A stretch of DNA of 64,000 nt from a virus. The notes under the pieces were generated by a model, which saw only the letters and a program-made list of their open reading frames with translations, was not told where the DNA came from and did not search any database. The stretch is taken from positions 1 to 64,000 of IMG/VR virus record IMGVR_UViG_3300020421_000005; one strand, written 5' to 3'. Below, one piece after another: positions 7,945 through 37,963 of this stretch; positions within the stretch are counted from its first letter, which is position 1; the number at the start of each line of letters is the position of its first letter. A program made the position numbers and the translations under genes.

Positions 7945-8795
7945 TAATCTTTAGTGTCTCCGATAGAGAATGTTCCTAGAACATTTGCGTCATTACTTGT
8001 CTTTTCTTCTTTCCAATTTGGTGCAGGCATATCATGTGTGTGAGGAAGTAATTGACCGCCAGGATTTGTAACTACTACATCAGCACATACTGAATAGTAG
8101 GGTGATTTGGGGTGGAAAAATATGCCACTCTTTTTCAATTCGCCACAATTCTTCAGTCTCGCTAGTTCAAAATCTAATCTCTTGTTAGCAATCAGTTGAG
8201 TCTGCATATTGTTTTGTAGTTGTGCTGCCTCCATACATTGCTTTTGTAGTTTTCTATTCAATGGTATGGATAGGGTGGCAGACAAACCAAGATTCAATGA
8301 CTGGTTTGCTGTCATGTCAGTACGAACAGGTTTCTCCCAGACCACTTGGCCAGGATTGTCTGGTATGCCGTCTGGACCATCTACGTCTACTGTTATCTCC
8401 ATGTCTTCCCCATCAGGGAACCATCTAGTTCCATCTGCTTTAGTCCTTGTGTCATACCATGACTCCCAAGGATAGTTCTTTACAGTAACAGTTTGTTGTG
8501 TGGTACGACCAGTGAAGTCAGTAGTATTATACTGAGGTTCCATTACTACATCTCTCCACGGATCTTTTCTACTGTCCGCAAATTGTAAGTAGGGTGTGAA
8601 GTTAACAGTAGCACCTTGACATTGCACGCCACCACCGTAAGTATTAGTTATATACGGTCCCTGTAGCACCTGTATAGCTTGATTTGTGACACTGCCCGAG
8701 CTGTTCGCGATTGGATTTGCTGTAGCTGATACCCCTCCAACATTCTCTGCTAATGCCGCCGTCGGAGAGATAATTGATAGTACTAATGTACTTAT
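7944..8795 (-). CDS. Putative exported/virion protein with unclear start codon
   Basis: The frame gives a plausible signal peptide (ISTLVLSIISPTAALA, then ENVGG) followed by a beta-rich, Asn/Thr-rich domain and a C-terminal segment with several cysteines and HTHD. No ATG, GTG or TTG lies at a sensible place: the only upstream ATG in frame (9110) would prepend about 105 residues that are clearly the out-of-frame shadow of the upstream gene. An ATA at 8795, overlapping the TAA of the upstream gene, would give 283 aa. Alternatives are a frameshift joining it to the 161-aa gene, or an assembly error. Function unknown; position suggests a virion or host-envelope role. Confidence 0.6.
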   Translation of the reverse strand: MSTLVLSIISPTAALAENVGGVSATANPIANSSGSVTNQAIQVLQGPYITNTYGGGVQCQGATVNFTPYLQFADSRKDPWRDVVMEPQYNTTDFTGRTTQQTVTVKNYPWESWYDTRTKADGTRWFPDGEDMEITVDVDGPDGIPDNPGQVVWEKPVRTDMTANQSLNLGLSATLSIPLNRKLQKQCMEAAQLQNNMQTQLIANKRLDFELARLKNCGELKKSGIFFHPKSPYYSVCADVVVTNPGGQLLPHTHDMPAPNWKEEKTSNDANVLGTFSIGDTKD

Positions 8796-9277
8796 TGCGT
8801 AAACGTTGAAGTTGTGTCGGTCACGCTTTCTATGGTGGTGACTCTCTGTATTATTGTCTGATTGGTCATGCCAGGCCCTTGGTAGCTCTGTGTAAATTGG
8901 AAAGCTCCGCCTGGATTTGTTATTGTAAAGCTGCTTGGGTTGGAGAAGTCTAAGGAGTCGAAGGAACTTGTTACTGTTCCTGTCACCACTGCTCCTCCTG
9001 TTGCACCCGCTGAACTGCTCGGTGTCACATTCACCGTTGATGTATTCACTGGTGGGTTGAGGGCTTCTCCATTGTTGGAGACCCCTGTGCCCGTCACGCT
9101 GTACTCCCATCCTGTCCTCATATCGATTGAATTTATGGTCTCGGTCACTGTCGAAGTCGTTTCGGTCCGAGATGTCATGCTGCCCTGTTGGAAATTAGGG
9201 ACCACAGGCACAGCCTTCGCAGTCCTCACATTCGCAAGGGCAAGTGCAACCACAAATGTCGCAAGAAGTTTCTTCAT
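8792..9277 (-). CDS. Putative exported Thr/Ser-rich protein
   Basis: A 161-aa protein with a clear Sec-type signal peptide (MKKLLATFVVALALANVRTAKA, probable cleavage near residue 22) and a mature part rich in Thr, Ser and Val with TSTVTETINS-type beta repeats. It is the middle one of three neighbouring leftward genes with exported-type N-termini. Its stop overlaps the presumed start of the next gene. It may form a secreted or surface-deposited beta structure; no family recognised. Confidence 0.7.
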   Translation of the reverse strand: MKKLLATFVVALALANVRTAKAVPVVPNFQQGSMTSRTETTSTVTETINSIDMRTGWEYSVTGTGVSNNGEALNPPVNTSTVNVTPSSSAGATGGAVVTGTVTSSFDSLDFSNPSSFTITNPGGAFQFTQSYQGPGMTNQTIIQRVTTIESVTDTTSTFTQ

Positions 9278-9286
9278 TAGTCATGT

Positions 9287-9799
9287 TCAATCTATCGAAA
9301 TTTCTGAAACGAATTGGCCAGTAGCACTAGTGCCTGCGCCTCCAGCTGTTAGCGTCATAACGCCCGCTGAGGTAATCGTGCCAGCAAGACTGCCTGCCAC
9401 GCCGCCACTTTGTGTTACTACACTACCATATGCAGGCATGTCAGCAACAATACCAGCAGATACGTCAACACCAGTTCCTATTGGATTTACTGCATCGCCT
9501 AGAATAAATGATTCTGTTAGGCTGAAGGCACTGCCAGCAGTAGTAACTGAGTAAGAACCTTGAGTCTGACTAGCCGCCGCAGTTGTAATTGTATCTCCAG
9601 CTGACTTGGTGAGTCCACCCATAGTACCAGCGGTGATATTGTTACCGCTTACGCTATAAGTTGAGCCAATTCTTGTAGCCTGAGTCGCTGCGCCGTCAAC
9701 ACTGAGTTGGGTACTCGTAGTCAATCTGTGAATCAAATCGGCCCTCGCTGCCATGGGAGCCGCCATCAAAAGCATAATTATAGGTAAAAATCTTTTCAT
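9287..9799 (-). CDS. Putative exported Ala/Gly/Thr-rich protein
   Basis: A 170-aa protein with a signal peptide (MKRFLPIIMLLMAAPMAARA, probable cleavage near residue 20). The mature domain has low charge and is rich in Gly, Thr and Ala, as in fibrous beta proteins. A perfect late promoter sits 28 bases upstream, so expression should be late. Ten bases separate it from the next signal-peptide gene. Function unknown. Confidence 0.72.
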   Translation of the reverse strand: MKRFLPIIMLLMAAPMAARADLIHRLTTSTQLSVDGAATQATRIGSTYSVSGNNITAGTMGGLTKSAGDTITTAAASQTQGSYSVTTAGSAFSLTESFILGDAVNPIGTGVDVSAGIVADMPAYGSVVTQSGGVAGSLAGTITSAGVMTLTAGGAGTSATGQFVSEISID

Positions 9800-9827
9800 G
9801 TTGATTTCCCACTACTTAGTCTGCCTG

Positions 9828-9835
9828 TATTTATA
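9828..9835 (-). promoter_or_regulatory. T4-type late promoter TATAAATA
   Basis: On the minus strand the bases read TATAAATA, identical to the T4 late promoter core recognised by gp55-modified RNA polymerase. It is correctly placed upstream of the exported-protein gene starting at 9799. Confidence 0.72.
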
Positions 9836-9860
9836 CGGAAAAAAATTATATAATTTGTTA

Positions 9861-10460
9861 CTAATAATCTTCAAAAGTTATCTGATATGTGTTTAAGTCA
9901 ATGATGGCACGAGCTAATCGTTGACCAGTGCCTTCTCGGTCAACACTTGTAACAACTTTGGGTATACTTTCTTTGTAATTTGTAAAGGATTGAGCGTATC
10001 CTACATTAATAAATCCGAATCCAGGCACGTTAGGTGTGTCTCTTTCTAATGACATGCTTCCACCTTGATATGAAGAAGCTCTTACTACTACTGGGTTTGT
10101 GCCAACTTCTGCATACCACATACCTCTGAAATCTAATTCTATTACATTGTTTGCAACTCCGCCTGGCACGGTTTTGATTGCATTTATGTCAATGTATATG
10201 CCTTCATACCCCTCTGTGTCTTGGGTATTGTCTCCACCCCATTTCATATATGTAACTGAACCACCACCATCTACAATCTGAGGTAGTTTATCAGTTCCTA
10301 CTATTTGACCAGCTAATTGAGTAGGGCGAATGAACTCACATCTGAGGTCAAAGTCCTTACCATCAGTCCAGTGCCAGTAGAACTGTAATAAATTTGAGTA
10401 AAATACTGGAGGATCAAACTGAGCTCCCCTTGACTTTCCAATTCCAAATGCTAATGGCAT
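9861..10460 (-). CDS. Putative virion structural protein
   Basis: A 199-aa aromatic-rich soluble protein starting MPLAFGIGKSRGAQFDPPVF. No signal peptide, membrane span or catalytic motif is seen; strands predominate (SNLLQFYWHWTDGKDFDLRC). It starts 4 bases after the cupredoxin-fibre gene, so it is probably translated with it and could be an adaptor or tail component. Family not recognised. Confidence 0.65.
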   Translation of the reverse strand: MPLAFGIGKSRGAQFDPPVFYSNLLQFYWHWTDGKDFDLRCEFIRPTQLAGQIVGTDKLPQIVDGGGSVTYMKWGGDNTQDTEGYEGIYIDINAIKTVPGGVANNVIELDFRGMWYAEVGTNPVVVRASSYQGGSMSLERDTPNVPGFGFINVGYAQSFTNYKESIPKVVTSVDREGTGQRLARAIIDLNTYQITFEDY

Positions 10461-10464
10461 AATC

Positions 10465-11328
10465 TTAACTAGGGATAATAAATGTGCCTTTCATACCACC
10501 ATGAATGGTGCATTGATATTCATATGCTCCAGGCGCAGTGTGCGGTATGATGAATACTTGTTCTCCATTCTGAGATCCACTAACATATGTTCCTACACCT
10601 GTTGATGTGCCTTGGAATTGAATACGGAATGGGTGTGAAGACCCAGTGGTGTTGTTGAAGATATAGGTCATTCCTCTCTGTAGATATAGAGTAGGATTTG
10701 ACATGTTATTAAGGATGCCAGGACCTGCAAACCAGTATGAAGAAGCACCGTTTGATCCCACAGTATATCTTATTGCAAATGATCTATCAGTTCCATTACC
10801 AGTGGTAAGATCGGTGACAAAACTACCAGCAGTACAGATACCAGATACATCTAGAGTAGTTGCAGTAAGGTTTGCAGGGACAGATCCTCCAGAAGCTTCA
10901 AAATTAAGTTTACCAGAAGTGTCATTATAAGTTACTGTGATGTTGGTTTCAGTTCCACCATCAACCATACCACCTACGATGTCTTGAACTTCCTCAGTGG
11001 AAAGTTGTGTGTTTGCAGCGGTGACTGTGACCACACCAGCTGATGCTGGAGAAACAGATAAGGCATCGCCAAAGTTAATTGTTCCAGCAGTTCCAATAAG
11101 AGAGTTGGTGTCCTTAATTACAATACCAGAACCAGTACCAGTAACTCCTGTGAGTCCTGATCCATCACCAACAAATGAAGATGCAGTAACAACTCCTGTG
11201 ACTGTGGTGTTAGTCTGGATAGCAACTTGACCAGCTTTTAAATTTAGGTCACCATTACTTTCTATAGTTGGATCACCACTCGCTCCAACTATATTCAGGT
11301 CCTTTACACCAAATGATTTGTCTGCCAT
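10465..11328 (-). CDS. Fibre-type protein with C-terminal cupredoxin-like (blue copper) domain
   Basis: A 287-aa protein. Residues 40-110 carry the fibre repeats shared with the large fibres (VTASSFVGDGSGLTGV; GTINFGDALSVSPASAGVVT). Residues about 185-287 resemble a plastocyanin/cupredoxin fold: SSHPF (His232), then YQCTIHGGMKGTF (Cys273, His276, Met279). These are the four residue types of a type-1 copper site in the right order, His-Cys-His-Met, although the His-Met spacing is short. It may bind copper or just use the fold for receptor contact. It has its own late-type promoter at 11347. Confidence 0.75.
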   Translation of the reverse strand: MADKSFGVKDLNIVGASGDPTIESNGDLNLKAGQVAIQTNTTVTGVVTASSFVGDGSGLTGVTGTGSGIVIKDTNSLIGTAGTINFGDALSVSPASAGVVTVTAANTQLSTEEVQDIVGGMVDGGTETNITVTYNDTSGKLNFEASGGSVPANLTATTLDVSGICTAGSFVTDLTTGNGTDRSFAIRYTVGSNGASSYWFAGPGILNNMSNPTLYLQRGMTYIFNNTTGSSHPFRIQFQGTSTGVGTYVSGSQNGEQVFIIPHTAPGAYEYQCTIHGGMKGTFIIPS

Positions 11329-11346
11329 TTCGCTAGTCTTTTGTAG

Positions 11347-11354
11347 TATTTATT
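11347..11354 (-). promoter_or_regulatory. Late-type promoter AATAAATA
   Basis: The minus strand reads AATAAATA, one base from the T4 late core, ending 19 bases before the cupredoxin-fibre start codon and touching the stop of the peptidase gene. Confidence 0.5.
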
Positions 11355-13569
11355 AGGAGAATTTTATCTCAACTCCACCACTAAACTTTAAGTTTGGTGA
11401 GTTTGTGATTCTAATCTCAGGTTTCTTTGGTTCAGTAGGTGAACCAGTAGGAGCATCCCATATTACAACAGGTCCTTGACCATACATCTGGACGGAATAC
11501 ATATCCTCCCATGCAGCTGTTGTCGATGTGAATCCTGTTATGTTATCACCATAGTAAAATCTGTCAGGAGATTGAGCACCACAACTGTTATTTAACCAGT
11601 TTCTTACATCAGTGTAAGTCCAATCTCTATTATATTGTAGTTTGGTAGTGATCCATCCAGCACATGTAGGACATCCAGAACTAGTGCCACCAAAATCAAT
11701 ATCATACGGAGTTAAAGTCAACCCACTATATGTTTCTGGGTGTGGATATGTAAGAGATGACGCTCTACCATCTGCTGTCATTGTGTCATCAGCAGCACCA
11801 TAACAATCAATACCTGTTCCCATGTCACTATAGGAAACTTTCTTTTCTTTATAGTCTGTGGTGTTACCACCCAGTCCACCACTTACAATTTGATCATCTA
11901 ACGCACCAATATTGATAGCAGCATACTCAGTTCCAGCAGTAGATAAACCAGATGTAGTTTTACCTAATGACTGTGGCCACCCTCTTCTATTGATAGTGTT
12001 ATAACATTGTAAACCAAATTCAAAATGAGTGCTCGCTGATAGAGGAGAATCATTTCCTTGAGCAGCTGTAGCCCAATAGTTGTCAAAATCAAGATCGCCA
12101 GGCCTTACCTGAGTTTGATTACTATTACCAGCAGCACAGACGAAGATCACTCCAGCGTCAGACAGTTCTTTACCAGATGCGGTTACAGAACTATCTACCA
12201 TCTCTCCTTTCATTCTACTACCATCACCATATGCACCTAGTAAATCAATGAATTCTGGTTCACTACCACTTGTATATGATGTGCCAGGCACTAATCCATC
12301 TATAGATGATGGTCTATACCAGTAGAATCCACCATCATGAATGGCATCGTCCCTATATCCCCAACTATTACTTGACAGTGTTGGGTTTTTAGTATCATTT
12401 TGTTTGCCAGTAACAGCAGAATGTCTATCATAGTTTGGTTTATATAAGTGGAAGAGTTTTTGTATATCAAATTGACTACCATTGATTCCAGCATTGGAAC
12501 CACCAATACCATTTAACACCCACTTGTTACAGTTGTATGCAGATCCATAATTTTTACCAAATACTTGACCAGCACATTGAGTTCCGTGGTCAGATCCGTT
12601 GGTTGGTTTCTGTGTATTACTTCCATTGCAACTTTGTCTACTGTAGAAAGCACTGAAACCACTAGTAGTACCAATGGTAGAGAATCCTACTGATCTCTGA
12701 CTTGAATCAGACCACCATGCTCTTGCTACAGACTCTACTGGGACTGTTGTACCATCCCAACGTTGAGTCAATCTATTGCCTGGATCTGCATTGAACCAGT
12801 CTGGGTCAATATAATATGGACCATCAAGAAGTACATCTAGGACACCACATGTGCCTGGTGTTGTAGATATACCACTCCATGTCAATGCGTTTCCTGTTGA
12901 GTATCCTACAGGATCATCATCAGTTGTTACAAATTCTGGGTGTGCAATCCAGAAACCATCATCAGACACGATTGCATCTACACCAGTGCCATCGCCTAAT
13001 TGTTTTGTCTCTGTCTCTATAATAATATGATCAGATTGAGTTAGTCCAGTGGATGTTGCATCCCAAGGATTCTCTTTCTGTGTGTGTCTTAGTATCTGAT
13101 ATCCAGTTCTGTTCTTATCTGATGCACCTATACCAGCCTGAGATGTAGGTGGTCTAGTGCCTGTCGGTGAAGTATTCCATGCTCTGTAGTTGGATACCGA
13201 CCCTGTTCCTCTACCAAACTTTTGTATACTAGCAACAATATCTTTTGGATCGGGAGCGTAGTTGCCTGGGTAAGCGTCATAATCAATACAGACAAACTCT
13301 ACCCTCTCATGTTTTCTTAGGTCTTCTGCTTCCGCATCAGTCAACATGTAGGTTGCTCTGGTATCACTATGTTCCTTTTTATCGGGACACACTATTGATG
13401 GATCTGGAATATTATCTTCCAGTGAACCATCTTTTTCTAGTTCTTCATGAATGAATACCCAGTCATCTTTGGTATAACATTTGATAGAGTATGCCTTCTT
13501 GTCGTTAGCTCCAGTTGGTTTGACAGCTAACCCTGTCCTATCAAGAGTGTTCGTACTAGTGTGAATCAT
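11353..13569 (-). CDS. Subtilisin-like (S8) serine peptidase, probable virion protein
   Basis: A 738-aa protein with a complete subtilase triad: Asp203 in AIVSDDGFWIAHPEF, His328 in SDHGTQCAG, and Ser630 in DFGGTSSGCPTCAG, which aligns with the family GTSxAxP box. Asn482 in FVCAAGN fits the oxyanion hole and SSNSWG is also a subtilase signature. About 100-150 N-terminal residues precede the catalytic core, and residues 690-738 form a tail with KKPEIRITNS. There is no signal peptide, and it is sandwiched between two fibre genes with a 4-base overlap, so it is probably carried on the virion. Possible roles are maturing fibre proteins or digesting host surface protein. Confidence 0.82.
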   Translation of the reverse strand: MIHTSTNTLDRTGLAVKPTGANDKKAYSIKCYTKDDWVFIHEELEKDGSLEDNIPDPSIVCPDKKEHSDTRATYMLTDAEAEDLRKHERVEFVCIDYDAYPGNYAPDPKDIVASIQKFGRGTGSVSNYRAWNTSPTGTRPPTSQAGIGASDKNRTGYQILRHTQKENPWDATSTGLTQSDHIIIETETKQLGDGTGVDAIVSDDGFWIAHPEFVTTDDDPVGYSTGNALTWSGISTTPGTCGVLDVLLDGPYYIDPDWFNADPGNRLTQRWDGTTVPVESVARAWWSDSSQRSVGFSTIGTTSGFSAFYSRQSCNGSNTQKPTNGSDHGTQCAGQVFGKNYGSAYNCNKWVLNGIGGSNAGINGSQFDIQKLFHLYKPNYDRHSAVTGKQNDTKNPTLSSNSWGYRDDAIHDGGFYWYRPSSIDGLVPGTSYTSGSEPEFIDLLGAYGDGSRMKGEMVDSSVTASGKELSDAGVIFVCAAGNSNQTQVRPGDLDFDNYWATAAQGNDSPLSASTHFEFGLQCYNTINRRGWPQSLGKTTSGLSTAGTEYAAINIGALDDQIVSGGLGGNTTDYKEKKVSYSDMGTGIDCYGAADDTMTADGRASSLTYPHPETYSGLTLTPYDIDFGGTSSGCPTCAGWITTKLQYNRDWTYTDVRNWLNNSCGAQSPDRFYYGDNITGFTSTTAAWEDMYSVQMYGQGPVVIWDAPTGSPTEPKKPEIRITNSPNLKFSGGVEIKFS

Positions 13570-16247
13570 AAGTTCTCAATGTAAGTCTTGACAAATCTGT
13601 ATGTAGATAATCCAGATATCCCTGCCTCTGGAGTGACTTTAACTAAAACGTTGTTGCCACTTACTGTTGAAGCAACTGATACCTGTTGTTCTGGGGAGAA
13701 CATAATAGCATACTCTTGTGAGAATGCTGTGGTTCCATCGTGCATCACGAGAAGTTTTTGTGATTGTCTGAATGTTCCTAGACCGATCATCAATGTGTAC
13801 TCTGCACCAGAGTAACTGAGTTTAGAGAATGAATCTATCTGTTGTTCCACACCAGCAGATGCAGTGTATGTTCCTACACCAGTTGTGGAAATAGAACCAC
13901 CTCCACCAGTACCAGCAGTGACTGTGATAGTTGCGTTTGAACCAGTTGCAGTTGCACTTACGGTAGATCCAACGAAGTCAATCGAAGTAATCCCTGATGC
14001 AACTTGAGTTCCCTCTTCTTTGATTATGATTCCAGAACCAGTTCCACCTGTAGGTGCGGCTGGTGCCCACTCTGATCCACTCCATGTCAATACATCACTA
14101 CTATTTGGAGATGCACTGGAAACATTAGATAAGTTACCTAAGTTTTGTCCACCTAGACCTGTTAGATATCCAGCAAGTGCATGGTTGCCCCATGAGTATG
14201 CAGTCTCATACTGTGTGATATCCAGTTGAGTTATTTGATTTCCACCAACAGAAATGAATGATGAGGCAGCGAAAGATGTACCTGTAACAACTCCAACTCT
14301 GTAGTTGTCAGTTCCAGTTCCTACTGTGCCATCTGCCTCTCTGTTGACTAATTCTTTCCATCCAGCGTGTGCAAAATATAATCTACCAGTGTCATGGGAG
14401 TGAGCAACTGCACCATGATAGGTAGATGATGATGGGAAGTCACTGTAATTGTCGTAGTAGAATGGTATTACGTTATCTGTTTGAATACCAACGATTCTGG
14501 TAGTAAAGACAGATCCACCACCGCCACCACCTGATGTGGTGACTGTTACAACACCAGCAGATGCTGGGGAAACACTGAAACCAGTTCCGAAGTTTACAGT
14601 TCCAATAGTTCCTACGAGTGTGCCACCTTCTCTAATGATGATACCACTACCAGATGCAGTAATACCTGTAAGACCAGAACCATCTCCAACGAATACTGCA
14701 CCAGTAACAATACCAGTACAGTTGATGTTAGCAACTAAGATGTCTGGTTTACCCTCTAGTCCTTGTGAAAGAGAGGCGATACCAGCAGATGCTGCGTATG
14801 CAACAGAAATATTACTTAAACCAGAACCATCACCTGTAAATGATATTCCAGTTACAACACCAACTCTATAGTTTTCAGTTCCAGTTCCAACTGATTGATC
14901 TTGATTCTTGTTGACTAGTTCATTCCAACCAGCGTGTGCATAGTATGCCTTACCTGTTTCGTGAACGTGAGCAAACTGACCATGATATGTGGATGATGAT
15001 GGTAGAGATGCGTAGGTTGACCATAAGAATGGTAGTAAGTTATCTGTGGCAGTACCATCTAAACGACCAGAAAGTTTAAGATTGCCTACAACCTTCAGTT
15101 TATATGACTCTGTATTAGTAGTTCCAAGACCAACGTTACTGAGAGTGTGAATACCAGTGGAGTTTGATCTCCAAATACTATCTGTTGATGGTAAGTTTGT
15201 AAGTTCAGATCCATCACCAGCAAACTTAGATGCAGTTACAACACCCACAGTGAAGTAGTTACCTAGATGATCACCGTGAAGTATCTGTCTCCAACCATTG
15301 TAACCACCCATTGTGGTTCCACTGGAAACGTATGCAGTCTTAGTATTATTTGCCCATGCAAACATACCTCTCCAAGAGGTTGCTTGAGGTAGATCACCTG
15401 TTGCGTCAAAGTCGAAACGCATCTTACTACCTTGGCCTGGGAAGGTTACAATTCCAAGACCATTGACATTATCAACAACTATTGATGGAGTTCCTGTTAA
15501 ATTCTGTGCGACTGAGGCGATACCAGCTGTGTGTGCATACCCTGCCATGGTTGCAAACCCTGTGTTACCAGTGTATGTTGCAACACCAGCCACCTTTGCA
15601 TACTCGGCTACTCCTGAGTTAGTTGAAACTCCAGATGCAGATGCGTATGTTACGATACCAGCGACTGAGGCGAAGTTTGCAGTCAGTGCCAGTGTTGCCG
15701 TGTCAGCAAACCCAGCAGTTCCTGATGTAGTAGATACTCCAGCAACGTTTGAGTAACCAGATGTGGTAGAGAATCCAGAAGTAAATGCAAATCCTACTGT
15801 GTCAGCAGCAGAAACTGTGACATTACCACCAAATACTTGTGTAATATCTAAGTTTCTATCGAAGTTAAGACTCTGTGCAACACCAACTAGAACACCACTA
15901 TCTTTAATGACAACACCAGAACCTGTTGCAGTCACACCTGTAAGACCAGAACCATCTCCAACGAATGTTCCAGTTGTAATACCTGTTAATTGAACGTTAC
16001 CTGATACAAACAAAGCAGCACTAGGATCGGTTGTGCCGATACCTACGTTCTTACTTGTGTATATTCCAGAGTTCCCTGCCTTCGTCCAAGTACCAGCACT
16101 GCCTGCGTTGACACTAAGGTTGTTACCGTCACCAAACGTGGTATAAATCTCTGTAAAGTTTTGATTTACTTTGGTTGCACCCAAGGCAAGGGAATCTCCC
16201 AGACCATCATTCGGTGTGAATCCAGTAAATATTCCCTGACGAGCCAT
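13566..16247 (-). CDS. Large fibre-like virion protein
   Basis: An 893-aa low-charge protein that begins MARQGIFTGFTPNDGLGDSL, the same attachment module as the fibre at 2610-4766. The shaft has many repeats of FVGDGSGLTGVTATGSGVVI type and two almost identical blocks ending in HDTGRLYFAHAGWKELVN and HETGKAYYAHAGWNELVN, so internal duplication is evident. It is first in the leftward structural operon, with a late-type promoter just upstream. The exact fibre (side or tail) cannot be stated. Confidence 0.8.
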   Translation of the reverse strand: MARQGIFTGFTPNDGLGDSLALGATKVNQNFTEIYTTFGDGNNLSVNAGSAGTWTKAGNSGIYTSKNVGIGTTDPSAALFVSGNVQLTGITTGTFVGDGSGLTGVTATGSGVVIKDSGVLVGVAQSLNFDRNLDITQVFGGNVTVSAADTVGFAFTSGFSTTSGYSNVAGVSTTSGTAGFADTATLALTANFASVAGIVTYASASGVSTNSGVAEYAKVAGVATYTGNTGFATMAGYAHTAGIASVAQNLTGTPSIVVDNVNGLGIVTFPGQGSKMRFDFDATGDLPQATSWRGMFAWANNTKTAYVSSGTTMGGYNGWRQILHGDHLGNYFTVGVVTASKFAGDGSELTNLPSTDSIWRSNSTGIHTLSNVGLGTTNTESYKLKVVGNLKLSGRLDGTATDNLLPFLWSTYASLPSSSTYHGQFAHVHETGKAYYAHAGWNELVNKNQDQSVGTGTENYRVGVVTGISFTGDGSGLSNISVAYAASAGIASLSQGLEGKPDILVANINCTGIVTGAVFVGDGSGLTGITASGSGIIIREGGTLVGTIGTVNFGTGFSVSPASAGVVTVTTSGGGGGGSVFTTRIVGIQTDNVIPFYYDNYSDFPSSSTYHGAVAHSHDTGRLYFAHAGWKELVNREADGTVGTGTDNYRVGVVTGTSFAASSFISVGGNQITQLDITQYETAYSWGNHALAGYLTGLGGQNLGNLSNVSSASPNSSDVLTWSGSEWAPAAPTGGTGSGIIIKEEGTQVASGITSIDFVGSTVSATATGSNATITVTAGTGGGGSISTTGVGTYTASAGVEQQIDSFSKLSYSGAEYTLMIGLGTFRQSQKLLVMHDGTTAFSQEYAIMFSPEQQVSVASTVSGNNVLVKVTPEAGISGLSTYRFVKTYIENL

Positions 16248-16276
16248 TTAGCTAAAATTATAGAGTCCCTGTCTTC

Positions 16277-16284
16277 TATTTATT
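16277..16284 (-). promoter_or_regulatory. Late-type promoter AATAAATA (leftward)
   Basis: The minus strand reads AATAAATA 29 bases before the start of the 893-aa fibre gene. It is one arm of a divergent promoter pair. Confidence 0.55.
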
Positions 16285-16289
16285 GATAT

Positions 16290-16297
16290 AATAAATA
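16290..16297 (+). promoter_or_regulatory. Late-type promoter AATAAATA (rightward)
   Basis: The plus strand reads AATAAATA 31 bases before the ATG at 16329. T4-type late transcripts start a few bases after this box, so the ATG at 16302 would be at or upstream of the transcript end and is unlikely to be the start. Confidence 0.55.
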
Positions 16298-16328
16298 CGT
16301 TATGATAGCTATACTGTATCCTTTCAAA

Positions 16329-18020
16329 ATGGACAAACTTTCTGAAGCCTATTCTGCAATTTATGAAGCGCCTTTACATCCTAATCTACAAAAGAATGAG
16401 GATAATATAAAGAAAAAGAACGAGGCACTGGCTGCTAAGAACAAACAAAGAGATGCAGACAGAGCAAAGTCAGCTGCTGAGTTTCAAGCACATAAAAAAG
16501 ATGTGATGTCAAAAGGAGGTCGTCCTGTTGACGCTTTAGACTCTTGGCAACAAAAGAAATTGAAGAAGGAAGGTAAGTATAGAGCCGAGTGGGAGACACT
16601 TAAACTTCTAGAGAAAGAAGATTACAGAGAGACATTCGATACTTGGTTAACAGGTCTTGCAGAAGAAGGATATGATATAGACAGATGGACTGATGAAGAA
16701 TTAGTAGAAGCATTTATCAATGAGAATGATCTTTGGGGTGCTAGTGATATGGTTATGGAGGCTCTTCTAGAAGAAGAGTCAGAAGAATTAAACGAAGTTA
16801 AAGATAAGAAAGGTAAGGGTAGTGGTACAAAGGATGCCTGTTATCATAAGGTAAAAGCACGTTATGATGTATGGCCAAGTGCATATGCGTCTGGAGCATT
16901 ATCCAAGTGCAGAAAGAAGGGTGCAAAGAACTGGGGTAACAGTTCTAAGAAAGAAGAAGTTGATTATAGTATTGATGAAATCTATCAAGGAAAGCACGGT
17001 CAGACTGAGAAACAGTATCAGGACAGCAGATCTAATGCTGGTAAGATGATCTCTGGTGATTCTAAGATGAGTGGTGCTAAGTACACTCATGGTAGAAGAG
17101 TGAGTGATGGTGGTGCTGGTCCTCAACCTGCTGGTGGTTCTAAGAAACCAGAAGCACAGGGTAGAATGGACAGCGGCAGTCGCACTGATCTAACATTCCG
17201 TAAGGTAGCACTGAAGAAGAAAGAAGCAGAGAAGAAAGAATCAATGAAAAATGAAGAGTTTGTTGATGAAGGCCTTGGTGCAGTAGTATCAGGACTAGGT
17301 AAAGCTGCTGTAAGAACAGGGATCAAGGTAGGTGGAAAGACAGGTGGTAAGATAGTCCAAGGCGCTATCAAACACGGTGGGCAGGAACTGAAGAACCAAG
17401 CAATAAATGCTGCTGGAGAAGCTGCTGCCGCTGCTGTAAGAAAAGGTGGTGAGAAGGTAAGAAAAAAGATACCACAGGATGATACCAATGTCAATGAAAT
17501 GGCTATGGCTAACCCAATCAGTCAATCAAATCAAAGACAGGCACTACAAAAAGCGAAACAAACACAACTCGCAAAAAGAGCATTGGTTAACAAGTTAATC
17601 AAAAAAGACAACAAACAAGATACAAAGTTACAACAAAAGGTAGCACAAATTCAAATGAGTAGTTTCTCTAATTGGAGAGATGAACTATCCTCACTCGATG
17701 AGAATAGAATGACTGCTTACAATGCTGGTGCTGGTGAAGGTAATGAAGACAGAGGTATAAGTAAGAAAGTTGCAGATAAGTTGGGTAGAAGTAATGATGA
17801 ATCAATGTTTAAGATGAGAAAGACAGGAGGGAAGACAAACAGATCCTACGAAAAGATGATAAGAAAGTCTATTCCTAGCGACAAACCAAACAGAAACAAA
17901 ACTGGTAGAGGTACACCTCAAAACTATCGTAAAGGTTATGAAGATCCAGAGATGGGTAGGTATCAATCTAAAATAGTACAAGGCAAAGGATCTATCAAAG
18001 ACTTGGGTAAAAAGAAATGA
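16329..18020 (+). CDS. Lys/Glu-rich putative virion protein with SEAYSAIYEA head
   Basis: A 563-aa, highly charged protein with N-terminus MDKLSEAYSAIYEA. A compact Cys-containing motif around residues 160-205 (DACYHKVKARYDVWPSAYAS, then GALSKCRKKGAKNWG) looks like a conserved small basic domain; a Gly/Ala-rich amphipathic stretch (VVSGLGKAAVRTGIKVGG) lies near 320-380. An alternative ATG at 16302 is disfavoured by the late promoter position. Composition and late promoter suggest an internal head protein or packaged DNA-binding protein; function not recognised. Confidence 0.7.
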   Translation: MDKLSEAYSAIYEAPLHPNLQKNEDNIKKKNEALAAKNKQRDADRAKSAAEFQAHKKDVMSKGGRPVDALDSWQQKKLKKEGKYRAEWETLKLLEKEDYRETFDTWLTGLAEEGYDIDRWTDEELVEAFINENDLWGASDMVMEALLEEESEELNEVKDKKGKGSGTKDACYHKVKARYDVWPSAYASGALSKCRKKGAKNWGNSSKKEEVDYSIDEIYQGKHGQTEKQYQDSRSNAGKMISGDSKMSGAKYTHGRRVSDGGAGPQPAGGSKKPEAQGRMDSGSRTDLTFRKVALKKKEAEKKESMKNEEFVDEGLGAVVSGLGKAAVRTGIKVGGKTGGKIVQGAIKHGGQELKNQAINAAGEAAAAAVRKGGEKVRKKIPQDDTNVNEMAMANPISQSNQRQALQKAKQTQLAKRALVNKLIKKDNKQDTKLQQKVAQIQMSSFSNWRDELSSLDENRMTAYNAGAGEGNEDRGISKKVADKLGRSNDESMFKMRKTGGKTNRSYEKMIRKSIPSDKPNRNKTGRGTPQNYRKGYEDPEMGRYQSKIVQGKGSIKDLGKKK

Positions 18021-18382
18021 AGAATTTTCAAGACTTCCAAGAGGCCACTCGTCTCAAAAAAGAGATGGGATATGATAAAGGTGGAACTAAGAAACCATCA
18101 TCTAAATCTAAGGACTCTGTACTAGATGCAGTAAAGAAATCCATTACAGCACAGTATGGTAAGGGTGCTATCATGAGAAGTGGTAGTAATCAACAGAAGA
18201 AAGTCAAAGGTCAGAAGACTGATGGTGAAGGTAAGTATCTCAAACAACATAAGGCAAACCAACAACTTAAGAAAGATGCCAAAGAGATGGGTTACGGTGA
18301 TGATACAAAAGGGTATGTAGAAACAAGAGCTAGATACGGTAGTAAAGAAAACATGAAATCAGGAAAAGGATTAGGTACATGA
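18017..18382 (+). CDS. Small Lys-rich protein
   Basis: A 121-aa basic protein starting MKNFQDFQEATRLKKEMGYD, overlapping the upstream gene by 4 bases (ATGA). Rich in Lys, Gly and Ser with no predicted membrane region. Its composition matches its large neighbours, so it probably belongs to the same virion-internal set. Confidence 0.68.
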   Translation: MKNFQDFQEATRLKKEMGYDKGGTKKPSSKSKDSVLDAVKKSITAQYGKGAIMRSGSNQQKKVKGQKTDGEGKYLKQHKANQQLKKDAKEMGYGDDTKGYVETRARYGSKENMKSGKGLGT

Positions 18383-18383
18383 C

Positions 18384-21300
18384 ATGCCATCAGTCTCGAA
18401 AAAGCAACAAAGGTTCTTTGGAATTGTTAGAGCGTATCAAAAAGGCACTCTCCCGACAGGGAAAACGTCGCCTGAGGTTCAAAGAGCTGCTACCAGCATG
18501 AAGAAAGGAGATGTAAAGAAATTTGCATCTACTAAACACAAAGGATTACCTGAAAAGAAAAAATCTCTTCCTGAAGGGTACAAGGGAGAGAAAAAAGATA
18601 AGAGTCTCTTTGCTAGATACAAAGATCTACAGGATCCTAAAGACCCAAACACTTTAGAAACCCTCCTCAAGAAAAAATCCCAACAGAAAAAGATGAATGA
18701 GTCAGTCGCTGTTAAAGAATTGGAAGATGGTCTAGTAAAATTAGACTATCCATCCTACGGTGAAGTTGATGACCTGATGAAGAGAATTGCTTCACGAAAT
18801 GGCATCGATACCACTCTCTTGCACATGCAATTTAAAGCAAAACATCTCATGATTCCAGATGATTGGGCTAAGAAGAAGATGTTTGAACCTGTCATGATTC
18901 CTAAGACACCAGTAAAGGAGAATTTAGGTGTGATGCCTAACAGAAGAGGTCCAAATATTGATGAATTAGATAAAAGATATCAAAAGAAGAAGGATCCAAT
19001 AGTTGAACTTGGAGCAGCAATTTTAAAATCAAATTTAAAATCAAAAAAAGAACAAGAAAAAGTAGATGAAGGTAAAAAAGGAACATTTGAAAAGATTGGT
19101 GGTGCCGTGGCTGGTACTGCTGGAAGTATAGCTGGTGGTATAGGTGGTGCTGCTGCCATGGGAGCTGCTGGTAGTGCAGTGCCTCTCGCAGGCACTGCTG
19201 CAGGGGGATTAGCTGGAGGAGTTTTAGGATCAATCGCTGGTGGCGAACTCGCTGGACTAAAAGGTAGAATGGTTGGAAGAACTGTGGACAAGGCACTAGG
19301 GACAGTCACTAAACCTATAAAGGGTGCTGGTAAAAATATTAAATCTTCCCTCCCAAAAAGATCTAGAACACTAACCACAGAAGAAGGCCTCCGTGATTGG
19401 TTTGGTAAATCTAAATCAAAAGATGGTAAAGGTGGTTGGGTCAACGTAGTTACAGGTGGAACCTGTGCTAGTGACGAACCAGGCGAGGGTACTCCCAAGT
19501 GTGTGTCATCATCTAAACGTGCGAGTATGACCAAGGCAGAAAGAAAGTCTGCGGCAAGAAGAAAGAAGGCAGCAGATCCAGGCCAACAATCAAAGTCAGG
19601 TGCTGCAAAACCTACATATGTTAGTACGGATAAAAAGAAAAAGGTGAACGAAGAGAAGGTATCTAAGGATCATCCTAATCATCCTGACAAACACGAAGAC
19701 CATCCTGATATGTCTTACAAAGACGCTGCTAAGATCAGAGTGGAAAAGAAAACTGCAAAGAAACAAGTAGAATCTGGTAACAGATCTAGGTTTACTGATA
19801 AATATTATCCAGAAAAGAAAAAAGACCTTAAGTATCCTGTAGGTAACAAGATCGTGAAAACTGGCAAACTCACAAAAGAACAATTCGCTGCTATCTTAGA
19901 AGATGCTAAGATGCACAGACAGACTGACATCAACTTAGATAGACTTCACGATAAGTTTAGTAAGATGGATCAGAGTATGCCATCTAATAAGTTTATGTTG
20001 AAGAGAATACAGAAAGAAAAGAAGAGGAGACAAGATAAAGCGAAGAAAGAAAATCTAAATCCTACTACTCAGATTAACGATAGCTTTGAGATTGATCCTA
20101 AGAAGCATAAGGATGCACAGAAGAAACAGAAGATGAGGAATCTTGCCATAGGCAATGAGAATTCTAATGAGAAGAAAGTTGCAGAGAAGAAAGCAGGCGG
20201 TCCTAAAATGATGGGTGAGGCAAAAAAACCTGTAGTCAAGGTGAAACTGAATCCTGATAAAAAAATTGGAGTCAAGGTTACTGACATAGGGGCTGGTGGA
20301 AAAGAGTATGTGAGAAAGAATACGATGGATGAGGCAAAAAATCCAGCACAACAGGCTGCTATTGCAATCTCTAAGAAAAATAGATTGCAAGATATGATGG
20401 TGTCTAGAAAGAAAAAGTTGAAAGAAACTGTTGAGATGTCAAGGAAAAAATGGAAGAAGACACATAAGGATTTTAGAAATGATGATGAAAAGAACCCTAG
20501 AGTCACAAGATACGTTGATGGAAAGGGAACTGTCTCAAGTCCTGTAAAATTTACTGAGGGTTCTATTGATCCTACAAGGAGCAAACCAAAAGAAGAACCA
20601 AAAGACCCTGCCAACATGGCAAAGAAAAAGGGAACAGTAAAGAAGGGTGAACCAGACTATAGAAATCTTGCAGCAGACTACACTCCTGATACTTCTATGA
20701 CAGAGGCTGCAGCATGGACAAGAAAGGCTGGTAAGAACTCGTCAGGTGGTTTGAATGAGAAGGGTCGTAAGTCTTACGAACGTGAGAACCCAGGCTCAGA
20801 TCTAAAAGCACCTAGTAAAAAGAAAGGTAACAAGAGAAGAGCATCATTCTGTGCAAGAATGAAAGGTATGAAAAAGAAACTTACCTCAGCTAAGACTGCA
20901 AGAGATCCTGATTCTAGAATCAATAAGTCTCTCAGAGCATGGAACTGTGGTTACGAACCAGAGACAGGTGAGTTGATTTCTGAGAAACTTGGTGGTATGG
21001 TGGCGGCAGTCAAAAGAAAAAAGGCAGTATTGAAACAGCCTATGAAAGCTATGGATGCTGGTGCTAGAGGGAGGAGACTCTTACAGAGAAAAGAGCATCA
21101 AAGATATGTGTCTGACATCATTCCAGATCATTTAAAGGATGAGTATACTCCTGTAATTGAAACAAAAGAAGTTCCTAAAGGTGTTAAAAAGATTGCCAAA
21201 GAATTAGATGCTGCAGTAAAGATGCACTCTAGTCAGGCAAGTAGATTAAGGAAAGCAGGCATCAGTGAGGGAAAGAAAAAGTGTGGTGAAGGTGAATACT

Positions 21301-33347: not shown

Positions 33348-34499
33348 ATGAAAATCGGTGTTATCGGTGCAGGGAGACTTGGCATTTGCTTTGCCCTTCT
33401 TGCTGAGTCCGCTGGTCATGATGTATTCGTTTCTGACATACAACAAAGTTATGTCAGTAAACTTAATGCTAAAGAACTTTATAGTAACGAACCAGAAGTA
33501 GAAGATCTTTTGCTTCGATCTAAGAAACTAAGAGCGAGTACCAACAATCAAGATGTTATTAAATCCTCTGACGTTATCTTTACTTTTGTTCCTACTCCCT
33601 CTCTAGATGATGGCAGTTATGATTGTAGTTTAGTTGATGATGTTGTGTGTGATCTTCTCAGGTCTCCCAACTTGGAAGGAAAGAAATTTATTGTCGGATG
33701 CACAACCAATCCAGGCTTTGTAGATAGGGTAGATAAGAAATTAGAAGGAAGAGGTATAAGTGTATTCTATAGTCCTGAGTTTGTTGCACAAGGAACAATC
33801 ATCAGAGACATGAAAAATGCAGATATGATTCTGTGTGGTGGCAATGATGAGGAAGGATTTGAACTTATCAAATCAATCTATCTTTCATTCATGGAGAGAG
33901 AGGTAAACTTCTATCCCATGTCTAATACTGCTGCAGAGATCACTAAGATTGGTATCAACTGTTTCCTTACATACAAGATCAGTTATGCTAACATGATGGG
34001 TCAGATTCTATACAACTCTGGGTGTGGTAAGGAGATTGAAAAGATCCTGTCATCCATTGGAGCGGACAGCAGAATTGGGTCTAAATATTTGAACTATGGT
34101 TTGGGTTTCGGAGGTCCTTGCTTGCCCCGTGACAACCGTGCTTTAGGATACTATGCTGATAAGGTTGGTCTTAAGTATAGTCTTCCTCAAGTGACTGATG
34201 ATTTTAATGAAGCACATGCAGAGTTCATTAAGAACTACTGTGTAGAGTGCAATACAGAAGGTCTTGCTTTTTTCATTGATAGTATTGGTTACAAGGTAGG
34301 ATGTGATCTGGTAGTTGAAAGTCCACGACTTAGACTCGTAGAAGATCTATTGAAGGATGGTCACACAGTATATGTGCAAGAGATTGATGATGTCGTAGAT
34401 GAGTATGGCGAAGAACTCGAAGAAGATTATGGAGATAATATTATCTTTGTCAAGAACCATAATGAAATACATGAGAAGACATGGAGGATTGACCTTTGA
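33348..34499 (+). CDS. UDP-glucose/GDP-mannose dehydrogenase family protein
   Basis: A 383-aa nucleotide-sugar dehydrogenase. MKIGVIGAGRLGICFAL binds NAD, FTFVPTPSLDDGSYD is the family loop, SPEFVAQGTIIRDM and the catalytic Cys box GLGFGGPCLPRDNRALGYYA are present. It oxidises a nucleotide hexose to the uronic acid form. The C-terminal domain is a bit shorter than usual. The sugar (UDP-Glc, GDP-Man or other) is not determined. Confidence 0.88.
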   Translation: MKIGVIGAGRLGICFALLAESAGHDVFVSDIQQSYVSKLNAKELYSNEPEVEDLLLRSKKLRASTNNQDVIKSSDVIFTFVPTPSLDDGSYDCSLVDDVVCDLLRSPNLEGKKFIVGCTTNPGFVDRVDKKLEGRGISVFYSPEFVAQGTIIRDMKNADMILCGGNDEEGFELIKSIYLSFMEREVNFYPMSNTAAEITKIGINCFLTYKISYANMMGQILYNSGCGKEIEKILSSIGADSRIGSKYLNYGLGFGGPCLPRDNRALGYYADKVGLKYSLPQVTDDFNEAHAEFIKNYCVECNTEGLAFFIDSIGYKVGCDLVVESPRLRLVEDLLKDGHTVYVQEIDDVVDEYGEELEEDYGDNIIFVKNHNEIHEKTWRIDL

Positions 34500-35356
34500 C
34501 GATTAGTTATAATCGCCTCGGTAGTAATGGTAGACTTGGAAACCAAATGTTTCAGTATGCCTCACTCAGAGGAATCGCAAATTACAATCAGTATCAGTGG
34601 ATGATTCCGCCACCTGATTGTAACCATAAAGATAATTATGGATTGTTTGATACATTTGAAATGAAGCATGTACAACCTGAGAATCTTGGGTTCAATGATG
34701 GCATGACAGTCAAAGAATCTACACATGCTTTTGATGAGAGTTTATTTTACTGTACAGATGGTGTCAACATAGATGCCTATCTACAAACAGAAGATTACTT
34801 TGTACACATTGCAGATCAGATCCGTGAAGACTTCACATTTAAAAAAGATGTTCTCGAACCTTGTACTGATTACATCAGGTCTTTGGATAGCCCTCCTATT
34901 TTTCTGCACATTCGTCAGTCCGATAATATTGGAAGAGAGGAATTCCACCCCATCCTCCCGCTTACATTTTTTAAAACTGCGCTAGAATTTTGGAGTCCTG
35001 ATACTCCATGTTTTGTATTCACAGATGATTTAGATTGGTGTAAGAATCAATCATTCTTTGACAACGATAGGTTTATCTTTAATGATAATCCTGAGAGATA
35101 TGAATATCAAACTATCGATGGCACAGGCCAGATGCAGAACACTCTTCTGCCTCAGGTTGATCTATGTTTGATGAGTCTTTGTTCTGGTGCCATCATCGCC
35201 AACAGTTCATTCAGTTGGTGGGGTGCATGGTTGCAAGGAGATAGGGGTAAAGTCATCGCCCCCGACCCAGAGAAGTGGTATGGTTCTTCCATGTCACACT
35301 TGGATACAAGTATGATGGTTCCTGCCCGTTGGCAGACACACTATTGGAGTAAATAA
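34496..35356 (+). CDS. GT11-family glycosyltransferase (alpha-1,2-fucosyltransferase-like), copy 1
   Basis: A 286-aa protein. NGRLGNQMFQYASLRGIAN is the GT11 head and SGAIIANSSFSWWGAWL the C-terminal family motif. The donor motif HxRRGD reads HIRQSDN, so the second Arg is replaced. The start is a TTG overlapping the previous TGA, with GGAGG 8 bases upstream. First of three GT11 genes in 3.5 kb. Confidence 0.85.
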   Translation: MTISYNRLGSNGRLGNQMFQYASLRGIANYNQYQWMIPPPDCNHKDNYGLFDTFEMKHVQPENLGFNDGMTVKESTHAFDESLFYCTDGVNIDAYLQTEDYFVHIADQIREDFTFKKDVLEPCTDYIRSLDSPPIFLHIRQSDNIGREEFHPILPLTFFKTALEFWSPDTPCFVFTDDLDWCKNQSFFDNDRFIFNDNPERYEYQTIDGTGQMQNTLLPQVDLCLMSLCSGAIIANSSFSWWGAWLQGDRGKVIAPDPEKWYGSSMSHLDTSMMVPARWQTHYWSK

Positions 35357-36282
35357 TGGCAATTTCATTTCAAGGATTAGGAAACGAAGGTAGACTAGGA
35401 AATCAAATGTTCCAGTATGCTTTTGTAAGAGGACTTGCTGCACATAAAGAATATGATTGGGTCATCCCAGGCCCTGATGCAGATAGACTTGACAACTATG
35501 GTTTGTTCGATGCGTTTGAATTGTATGGTTGCCTCCCACAAAATCAGGGAGAACCATTCTTCCATAAACAGAAAGTCTATAGAGACATGAAGTTCAATAA
35601 AGAGATATGGGATTGGGCTGAAGACGATACTAATTTCTCTGGTAATTTTCAAACAGAATTATACTTTGAAAGTATCTCTGCTGATATTAGACATGACTTT
35701 ACATTTAAGAAAGAATATCTAGAACCCTGTACAGAGTTTATTGAAGAGAACGGTGGACAAGATAATAATATCTTCCTACATGTTCGCAGAGGTAATCCTA
35801 ATGTGACAGGCAGAAGAGGAGAGAAATGGTCTTATCAGATGGTGCAAGAGTATCATCCTATTTGTAAGAAAGAATATTATATTGAGGCACTATCAAAGTT
35901 TCCAGAAGATAAAAATGTTATTGTAGTTTCTGACACTATTGATTGGTGTAAGAAACAGGATTGGTTACAGGGAGATAGATTCCTATTCTCTGATGCCTCT
36001 TATGAGGAGTTTGGAGATGGTGCATCTGTTCCTTATATTGATCTCTGTCTTATGACACTATGCGGTGGTGGTATTATCGCCAACTCATCTCTATCATGGT
36101 GGGGTGCATGGTTGCAGAAAGGTGGAGATAAGATGGGTAAAAACTCTATCCAAAGACACTGGCAAGTTGTTGCTCCTGATCCTTGGTTTGGAATTAAGTA
36201 TGACATGTATGACATGAGCGATTTGATTCCCCCACGTTGGATTAAATTACACAATGATCCCTCTTACATTGAGCCTGAATAA
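35356..36282 (+). CDS. GT11-family glycosyltransferase (alpha-1,2-fucosyltransferase-like), copy 2
   Basis: A 308-aa protein with NEGRLGNQMFQYAFVRGLAA, FLHVRRGNPNVTGRRG (Asp of HxRRGD replaced by Asn) and GGIIANSSLSWWGAWLQ. The central part has an insertion (RGEKWSYQMVQEYHP) shared with copy 3, suggesting these two are closer relatives. TAATG overlap with copy 1. Confidence 0.86.
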   Translation: MAISFQGLGNEGRLGNQMFQYAFVRGLAAHKEYDWVIPGPDADRLDNYGLFDAFELYGCLPQNQGEPFFHKQKVYRDMKFNKEIWDWAEDDTNFSGNFQTELYFESISADIRHDFTFKKEYLEPCTEFIEENGGQDNNIFLHVRRGNPNVTGRRGEKWSYQMVQEYHPICKKEYYIEALSKFPEDKNVIVVSDTIDWCKKQDWLQGDRFLFSDASYEEFGDGASVPYIDLCLMTLCGGGIIANSSLSWWGAWLQKGGDKMGKNSIQRHWQVVAPDPWFGIKYDMYDMSDLIPPRWIKLHNDPSYIEPE

Positions 36283-37119
36283 ATGAAAGATATAACCTAC
36301 CTACTGCCATGTAGGATAGAGACGGAGGACAGACTACGAAATGTAATCACCTCCATTACTTACATAATGAAATGCTTTCCCGAAGCAAAAGTTATTGTAA
36401 AAGAAGTAGACACGCAATCACACTTCAGTGAGAGTGCTTTGCCTCGCATCAAAAGTTATGTGGGAGATACTTCACAACTGAAACATATCTTTGAACAAAG
36501 TTCAGAGAAGTTTTTTCATAAAACAAGAATACTAAATGACCTATGCGTTGCCGCTGATACTCCTATTCTATACAATCATGATGTGGATGTTGTTGTCCTA
36601 AAGAACTCACATCAACTTGCTCACCGTGCCATCACACAGGAAGGATCCGATGCTGTCTATCCTTTTGGATGTGGTATCTACCAGTGGGCAGTAACTTACT
36701 CCGATCAACTATTGGATAAGTTTTTATCATCACATGATGGTAACGATGCTGACTTTGAAGTTCTCAAGGATCACAAAGTTAGGATTCCATCATCTATTGG
36801 ATGGGGTCAAATGATAACCAAAACCGCAGAAGTATCTGCTGGACTATGGAATGAAGAATTCATATCATGGGGAGCAGAAGATTGTGAGTTTTATTACCGA
36901 CTAAATTGTTTTGGATTTAAAGTTGGCAGAGTCATTGATGACATCTATCACTTTGAACATGGCAGAACATTCAATTCACATTATCACAATCCTAAGTTTC
37001 AAGATAACGATAGATTGTGGAACTGGATTAGGACTCAAGATAAAGAGTCTTTGACACAATACTATGCAAAGTTAGACTACATCAAACGCAGGGGGAACGA
37101 ACTAAATGCTAGCCTTTAA
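36283..37119 (+). CDS. GT-A glycosyltransferase (GT7/chondroitin-synthase-like)
   Basis: A 278-aa protein. ILYNHDVDVVVLKNS holds the DxD metal motif and WNEEFISWGAEDCEFYYRLN is the W-G-x-E-D catalytic block of GT7-C type galactosyl/hexosaminyl transferases, followed by HFEHGRTFNSHYHNP. A UDP-sugar transferase extending the glycan is likely. It directly abuts copy 2 and overlaps copy 3. Confidence 0.8.
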   Translation: MKDITYLLPCRIETEDRLRNVITSITYIMKCFPEAKVIVKEVDTQSHFSESALPRIKSYVGDTSQLKHIFEQSSEKFFHKTRILNDLCVAADTPILYNHDVDVVVLKNSHQLAHRAITQEGSDAVYPFGCGIYQWAVTYSDQLLDKFLSSHDGNDADFEVLKDHKVRIPSSIGWGQMITKTAEVSAGLWNEEFISWGAEDCEFYYRLNCFGFKVGRVIDDIYHFEHGRTFNSHYHNPKFQDNDRLWNWIRTQDKESLTQYYAKLDYIKRRGNELNASL

Positions 37120-37963
37120 TCAAATGGGTAACCTAGGCAGACTAGGTAATCAAATGTTTCAGTATGCTGCCGTTAGGGGTATCTCTGCTATGCGTGGATA
37201 TGAATTTGGTATTCCACCTTTTGAATCTAAGAGAGTAGATAATTATAGTTTACACAGAGCCTTTACATTAGAGAGTGTAGGAAGAAGTAATCTTGCAGTT
37301 CTTGATAGAGGTCACGCTCCTGTAGTAATCGAAAAACATTTTGAGTTTGATGAAGAACTCCATAGAATGTGCCCCAATGATGTAAGTTTATTTGGATTCT
37401 TTCAGACAGAAAAATATTTCAAAAATATAGAACAAGATATCAGGAGAGATTTTACTTTCCATGATTCTATTCTAGGACCTTGTAAGGAAATGGTAGATTC
37501 ATTAGATCAGGTTCCATTGTTCTTACATGTAAGGAGAGGAGATCCTAATCTAGTAGATGCCAGAGGGTTTAAATGGTCTTACACCGAATGTTCTGGTCAA
37601 CATCCACCACAACCTGTAGAATACTATGAGAAGGCACTCAAGGAGTTTCCAGAGGATCAACCCATAGTAGTTTGTTCAGACTCTCCTGAGTGGGTAAACG
37701 AACAGGAGTTCTTTGCTGATGATAGATTCCTTGTATCAGAACCAACAGACAAATATCCCGATGGATCTTATGAACCATTCGTTGATCTCTGCATCATGAG
37801 TTTATGTTCTGGTGCAATCATTGCTAACTCATCCCTATCATGGTGGGGTGCATGGTTACAAAATGGTAGAGGAAAAGTCGTAGCACCTAAACAATGGTTC
37901 GGTCCAGATTATAAAGACAAAAATCTTAAGGACTTATATTGTGACGGATGGATCGTAATTTAA
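37106..37963 (+). CDS. GT11-family glycosyltransferase (alpha-1,2-fucosyltransferase-like), copy 3
   Basis: A 285-aa protein with LGRLGNQMFQYAAVRGISAM, the full consensus donor motif FLHVRRGDPNL and SGAIIANSSLSWWGAWLQ. It is the only copy of the three with an unaltered HxRRGD. Overlaps the GT-A gene by 14 bases and the next gene by 16. Confidence 0.88.
   Translation: MLAFNQMGNLGRLGNQMFQYAAVRGISAMRGYEFGIPPFESKRVDNYSLHRAFTLESVGRSNLAVLDRGHAPVVIEKHFEFDEELHRMCPNDVSLFGFFQTEKYFKNIEQDIRRDFTFHDSILGPCKEMVDSLDQVPLFLHVRRGDPNLVDARGFKWSYTECSGQHPPQPVEYYEKALKEFPEDQPIVVCSDSPEWVNEQEFFADDRFLVSEPTDKYPDGSYEPFVDLCIMSLCSGAIIANSSLSWWGAWLQNGRGKVVAPKQWFGPDYKDKNLKDLYCDGWIVI

Follow-up and report, generated by a model that had tools for sequence, protein, structure and literature searches.

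The window analyzed here, a stretch of 64,000 nucleotides within a virus record of 112,724 bases, encodes a complete subtilisin-family protein beside a fiber gene. Judging from sequence comparison and structure prediction, we consider it reasonably likely that this protein is an active accessory protease borne on the tail, docked on the fiber as a zymogen and acting on a protein of the host surface. The sequence family and its PF00082 domain annotation are already public; what is new is that the catalytic residues are invariant family-wide, that the fiber partner is conserved, and that the protease follows an accessory pattern.

An intact subtilisin-type protease

The gene and its parts are as follows.

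11353 to 13569, minus strand: subtilase gene, 738 amino acids, uninterrupted open reading frame (ORF); member of phrog_9158 / T4-GC292
13279 to 13503, minus strand: probable I9-like prodomain (intramolecular chaperone/inhibitor), residues 23-97; predicted β-α-β-α-β domain
11500 to 13020, minus strand: catalytic subtilisin-fold domain, residues 184-690 (Pfam match, residues 201-668; Foldseek TM score over the target, 0.74-0.76)
12961 to 12963, minus strand: codon of catalytic Asp203, context VSDDGF, from the homologue alignment
12586 to 12588, minus strand: codon of catalytic His328, context DHGTQ, from the homologue alignment
12124 to 12126, minus strand: codon of oxyanion Asn482, context AAGNSN, from the homologue alignment
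11680 to 11682, minus strand: codon of the nucleophile Ser630, context GGTSSGCP, from the homologue alignment
11356 to 11418, minus strand: C-terminal tail, residues 718-738, with alternating hydrophobic residues (NLKFSGGVEIKFS); low-confidence prediction, candidate docking strand

A previous sequence-only reading had described a complete subtilisin-type protease inside a fiber operon, with Asp203, His328, Asn482, and Ser630 in place, and this description holds. All four residues occur at these positions in the 738-residue ORF, and the Peptidase_S8 profile (PF00082) matches residues 201-668 at 36.7 bits (cutoff, 21.8; E = 3.9e-9). The features of family S8 are present throughout: the Asp-His-Ser order, the DxG, HGT/S, and GTSxxxP contexts, and the oxyanion Asn. 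The protein also matches phrog_9158 (E = 4.9e-180). A search of PDB sequences matched subtilisins weakly (E = 0.007). The AlphaFold2 model, built from 55 sequences (the window protein plus IMG/VR or metagenome-assembled genome [MAG] sequences), has a subtilisin alpha/beta fold with a mean pLDDT of 85.6 and a pTM of 0.81. Foldseek aligned this model with proteinase K and subtilisin structures (E = 4.7e-11) at TM scores over the target of at most 0.74-0.76, reached by the proteinase-K-like enzyme 2b6n and the keratinase 5wsl; the best viral match was the protein of phage S-SCSM1.

Across an alignment of 151 unique homologues reaching down to ~21-25% identity, D203, H328, N482, and S630 are present in every sequence that covers them, as is S402; gaps at the catalytic columns correspond to truncated contigs or a broken frame. 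Because the patterns used for the IMG/VR scans did not contain the catalytic residues, this invariance is not an artifact of the search. Comparison with ten relatives gave dN/dS values of 0.15-0.21, indicating purifying selection. A chance ORF or a degenerate enzyme is thus ruled out by the intact residues, their invariance, and the dN/dS values, and the best reading of the sequence and the predicted fold is that of an active protease.

The protein resembles subtilisins and proteinase K (MEROPS S8) in the order of the triad, the DxG/HGT/GTS motifs, the fold, and possibly an I9-like prodomain. It differs from them in its larger catalytic domain (~500 versus 275 residues), its C-terminal tail, its location in a phage fiber operon, and the lack of a visible secretion signal. 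Other proteases of tailed phages include the T4 gp21 prohead protease and the S74 intramolecular fiber chaperone. These belong to different families, and neither Pfam family matched the window protein.

Terminal regions of the protease

The absence of a signal peptide, noted in the same reading, was borne out by eye, as the N-terminus (MIHTSTNTLDRTGLAVKPTG...) shows no hydrophobic signal sequence. Instead, AlphaFold2 places a small domain ahead of the catalytic domain, with strands at residues 25-31, 71-76, and 90-95 and helices at residues 34-45 and 78-85; modeled alone, this domain had a pLDDT of 64. When the domain was searched by Foldseek against 350,542 PDB chains, nine of the top 50 matches (ranks 1-4, 7, 18, 25, 34, and 47) were propeptide-sized subtilase chains or named prodomains, all with E values of at least 0.083 and thus none below 0.08. 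Ranks 1-4 were propeptide-sized chains (91-95 residues) from the alkaline protease of Aspergillus fumigatus; PC1/3 prodomains, a subtilisin propeptide, and a short chain of PAM protease ranked lower. Pfam returned no I9 match in the window protein. These suggestive structural similarities make residues 25-95 a probable I9-like subtilase prodomain.

At the opposite end, the alternating hydrophobic pattern of the last 20 residues recurs in very divergent homologues (SISGVSISGVSITNS; GLKLSGINFINT), and we infer that this tail is a candidate docking strand.

A family widespread among cyanophages

Positions 8000-20000 of the window share ~86% DNA identity over 83% of their length with Synechococcus phage S-SSM7. 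The S-SSM7 counterpart of the protease, SSSM7_232 (YP_004324284), has 88% protein identity, identical neighbors, and the same ATGA overlap, and differs in sequence divergence only; it is annotated "hypothetical protein; T4-GC 292; contains PF00082 domain." T4-GC292 is also found in P-SSM2. Profile match, homology, and shared synteny all place the window protein in phrog_9158 / T4-GC292, and phrog_9158 also holds the homologues of P-SSM2, S-T4, S-SCSM1, S-TIM54, and S-H9-1. PHROGs lists this family as "unknown function"; the catalytic invariance, partner fiber domain, and fusions are shown in the present analysis. Homologues are variously labeled "subtilisin-like serine protease" (S-H9-1, S-H38, and S-WAM2), "peptidase S8 family domain" (S-SCSM2R), and "virion structural protein" (S-TIM54). 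An S8 peptidase (T4-GC518) has been mentioned for P-HM1/P-HM2 (Sullivan et al. 2010, PMC3037559).

In total, the family was found in ~50 phage records, nearly all from cyanophages, and in 189 and at least 536 stretches in the IMG/VR scans, which identifies the subtilase as a recurrent accessory gene of cyanophages. The search for homologues in cyanophage structural operons that had been proposed earlier was productive, with family members lying beside fiber genes, and the accompanying view that such a protease is unusual for a T4-like phage does not apply to cyanophages. In one locus (L158, 4707-8310), two different subtilase genes stand in tandem behind a fiber-type gene. An origin as a host-derived or bacterial gene was rejected, as a scan of genome contigs gave four matches, of which one was a phage-like contig encoding an 88% identical subtilase and three were distant. 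The former (L177, PAWX01000033.1), binned in a Gammaproteobacteria MAG, is probably a misbinned phage contig.

A conserved fiber partner

The neighborhood of the protease gene contains the following features.

13566 to 16247, minus strand: upstream fiber/baseplate-type gene, 893 amino acids; stop codon shared with the protease start in ATGA
13569 to 13910, minus strand: C-terminal domain of the upstream fiber, common to nearly all upstream partners of the subtilase family
10465 to 11328, minus strand: downstream gp9-like fiber connector (phrog_677) with a C-terminal cupredoxin-like domain, from Pfam and PHROGs
16277 to 16283, minus strand: ATAAATA (T4-late-promoter-like), 30 nucleotides (nt) before the fiber ATG
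11347 to 11353, minus strand: ATAAATA (T4-late-like), lying across the protease stop, 19 nt upstream of the gp9-like ATG

The protease gene had been described as flanked by two fiber-type genes with overlaps. This is correct upstream, where the overlap is the 4-nt ATGA (13566-13569), and incorrect downstream, where a 24-nt gap (11329-11352) separates the genes. No ATAAATA precedes the protease start. The window as a whole shows no enrichment of the motif (12 observed versus 16 expected); late-promoter enrichment was consequently dropped as an argument, and we report positions only.

Two side observations concern other genes of the window. The cupredoxin-like domain at the C-terminus of the gp9-like protein (10468-10704, minus strand) apparently has all four type-1 copper ligands (HPF...YQCTIHGGM) and is kept in six of seven downstream gp9-like copies checked; a contig end truncates the seventh. 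Elsewhere in the window (34496-37963, plus strand), ORFs at 34496-35356, 35356-36282, and 37106-37963 share a GRLGNQMFQYA motif; they resemble glycosyltransferase (fucosyltransferase-type) paralogues and lie within a nucleotide-sugar gene cluster.

In 110 of 111 protease loci, the protease start lies between -4 and +15 nt from the stop of an upstream ORF at least 100 codons long, with overlap in 53, and the median gap downstream of the protease is 22 nt; as the loci are mutually related, these counts are not independent. Within the window's own clade, the gp9-like gene comes next in all 59 testable loci. The upstream proteins range from 254 to >1000 residues, and 105 of the 111 belong to a single similarity group, having in common a C-terminal domain of ~110 residues (alignments A6 and A7). 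When this domain was used as a tblastn query against phage records, all 18 high-coverage matches lay directly upstream of a subtilase, and weaker matches lacking a subtilase were found in S-SM2, S-SRM01, and S-TIM phages.

A further IMG/VR scan was begun from the fiber domain alone, which removed selection for the protease, and it recovered 80 loci. The subtilase is the next gene in 47 of these, and in a few more it is broken or lies beyond one small gene. In another 29, the gp9-like gene follows directly, 45-65 nt away, and the flanks examined contain no subtilase; four of the subtilase-free records, all fragments, contain no subtilase anywhere. Exclusive pairing of fiber domain and protease is therefore ruled out, and the protease is instead stably associated with this fiber type yet dispensable. 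In the tree of the fiber domain, one well-supported clade nested among subtilase-bearing rows gathers all but two of the rows without subtilase, and one of these two exceptions has a subtilase close by. The clade in which the partner domain runs straight into the gp9-like gene is represented in IMG/VR by the L216-L257 set. A second protease-free clade was considered and discarded, leaving one main clade: a subtilase lies one gene further in L256 and L258, and L263 has a frame-broken match. No subtilase was found in the flank examined of L219.

Evidence from virions and fused domains

Indirect evidence for a virion location of the family comes from S-SCSM1. Its gp144 (1411 residues) is labeled "baseplate wedge subunit (virion protein)," one of 47 "(virion protein)" labels in that record. 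According to the S-SCSM1 paper, 45 proteins were detected by mass spectrometry (MS) in CsCl-purified particles, and the three non-structural proteins that the authors name there all carry this label (PMC9602691). Given the closeness of 47 labels to 45 MS proteins and the labeling of the three non-structural ones, the label very probably marks MS detection. The available passages on S-SCSM1 do not mention a protease. Like the window protein, gp144 has a prodomain-like N-terminus, a subtilase domain with an intact triad, and a coupled upstream gene with the fiber C-terminal domain; it differs in being fused to a LamG/ConA lectin and has ~22-25% identity to the window protein. The proposal that the window protease is virion borne thus gains indirect support, through the label of a fusion homologue in a record whose labels agree with a published proteome of CsCl-purified virions. 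The virion proteome of Sullivan et al. 2010 covers S-SM1 only, not S-SSM7 (PMC3037559).

Several other homologues are also fused to additional domains. LamG/ConA lectin domains share a chain with the subtilase in L149 and L115 as well as in S-SCSM1 gp144, and He_PIG domains do so in L154. In S-TIM54 (L005, 9010-15432; 2140 residues), the subtilase and Ig domains share one tail protein with a prodomain-like start and a BD-FAE/carboxylesterase domain. AG-345-F15 (L004) carries a cupredoxin, the kind of domain that also ends the gp9-like protein, as an insertion within its subtilase, and a cupredoxin-type domain is located at the C-terminus of the S-H9-1 subtilase. Lectin, Ig, esterase, and cupredoxin-type modules are characteristic of parts of the tail that face the surface.

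Proposed role and alternatives

Based on the gene layout, the protease would be synthesized late together with the upstream fiber through ATGA translational coupling. The predicted fold suggests that the I9-like N-terminal prodomain would assist folding and remain inhibitory until cleaved off. The protein may then be built into the tail beside the fiber bearing the conserved C-terminal domain, perhaps via its own C-terminal strand. In the virion, for which the S-SCSM1 homologue provides support, it would be displayed near receptor-binding modules. There it may cut a protein on the cyanobacterial surface, for example in the S-layer or outer membrane, and thereby expose a receptor or open the way for the tail. 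The S-layer is one possible substrate class only.

More tentatively, the two chains may form an enzyme cassette at the fiber tip. Here, the conserved fiber C-terminal domain would dock the separate zymogen subtilase by its C-terminal strand, and the enzyme, maturing on the virion, would strip protein from the host surface during adsorption. Direct fusion to a lectin or esterase would take the place of the dock in some lineages.

The sequence-only reading had also offered fiber maturation as a role. In this alternative, a morphogenetic protease would act during assembly by clipping itself, another baseplate protein, or the upstream fiber (perhaps at the C-terminal domain of the fiber), with retention in the virion optional. 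Maturation proteases are widespread in phages, and both the tight translational coupling to the fiber gene and the presence of one C-terminal domain across very different fibers agree with such a role. We nevertheless regard it as unlikely. The 29 of 80 fiber-domain loci that lead directly to the gp9-like gene with flanks examined free of subtilase, in one nested clade and including the four fragment records, indicate that the partner fiber survives without the enzyme, and fusion to lectin and esterase modules would be odd for a purely morphogenetic enzyme. Obligatory fiber maturation is disfavored on both counts. Host-surface action fits better, given the lectin, Ig, and esterase fusions and the clade that keeps the partner fiber without the protease.

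A protease that acts late inside the cell, degrading host proteins or helping lysis, and is merely sited in the fiber operon seems improbable. Subtilases can work in the cytoplasm, and no signal peptide was seen when the N-terminus was read, but such a role is at odds with the constant attachment to fiber genes, the surface-type domain fusions, the virion protein label of a homologue, and the possible inhibitory prodomain. Phage fibers do reuse enzyme folds for binding, yet a catalytically dead subtilase serving structurally as a fiber adhesin is very improbable, since invariance of the triad and the oxyanion Asn in 151 unique homologues would be unexpected for a pseudo-enzyme.

Significance

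Tail-borne polysaccharide depolymerases are well known, and to our knowledge, tail-borne proteases that act on the cell surface have hardly been described. The literature searched contained no functional study of a phage subtilase of this kind. Because the catalytic residues and the fiber partner are conserved, the role of the protease is directly testable. If the proposed host-surface role is correct, a widespread cyanophage enzyme that cuts surface proteins would bear on the limits of infection in marine Synechococcus and Prochlorococcus.
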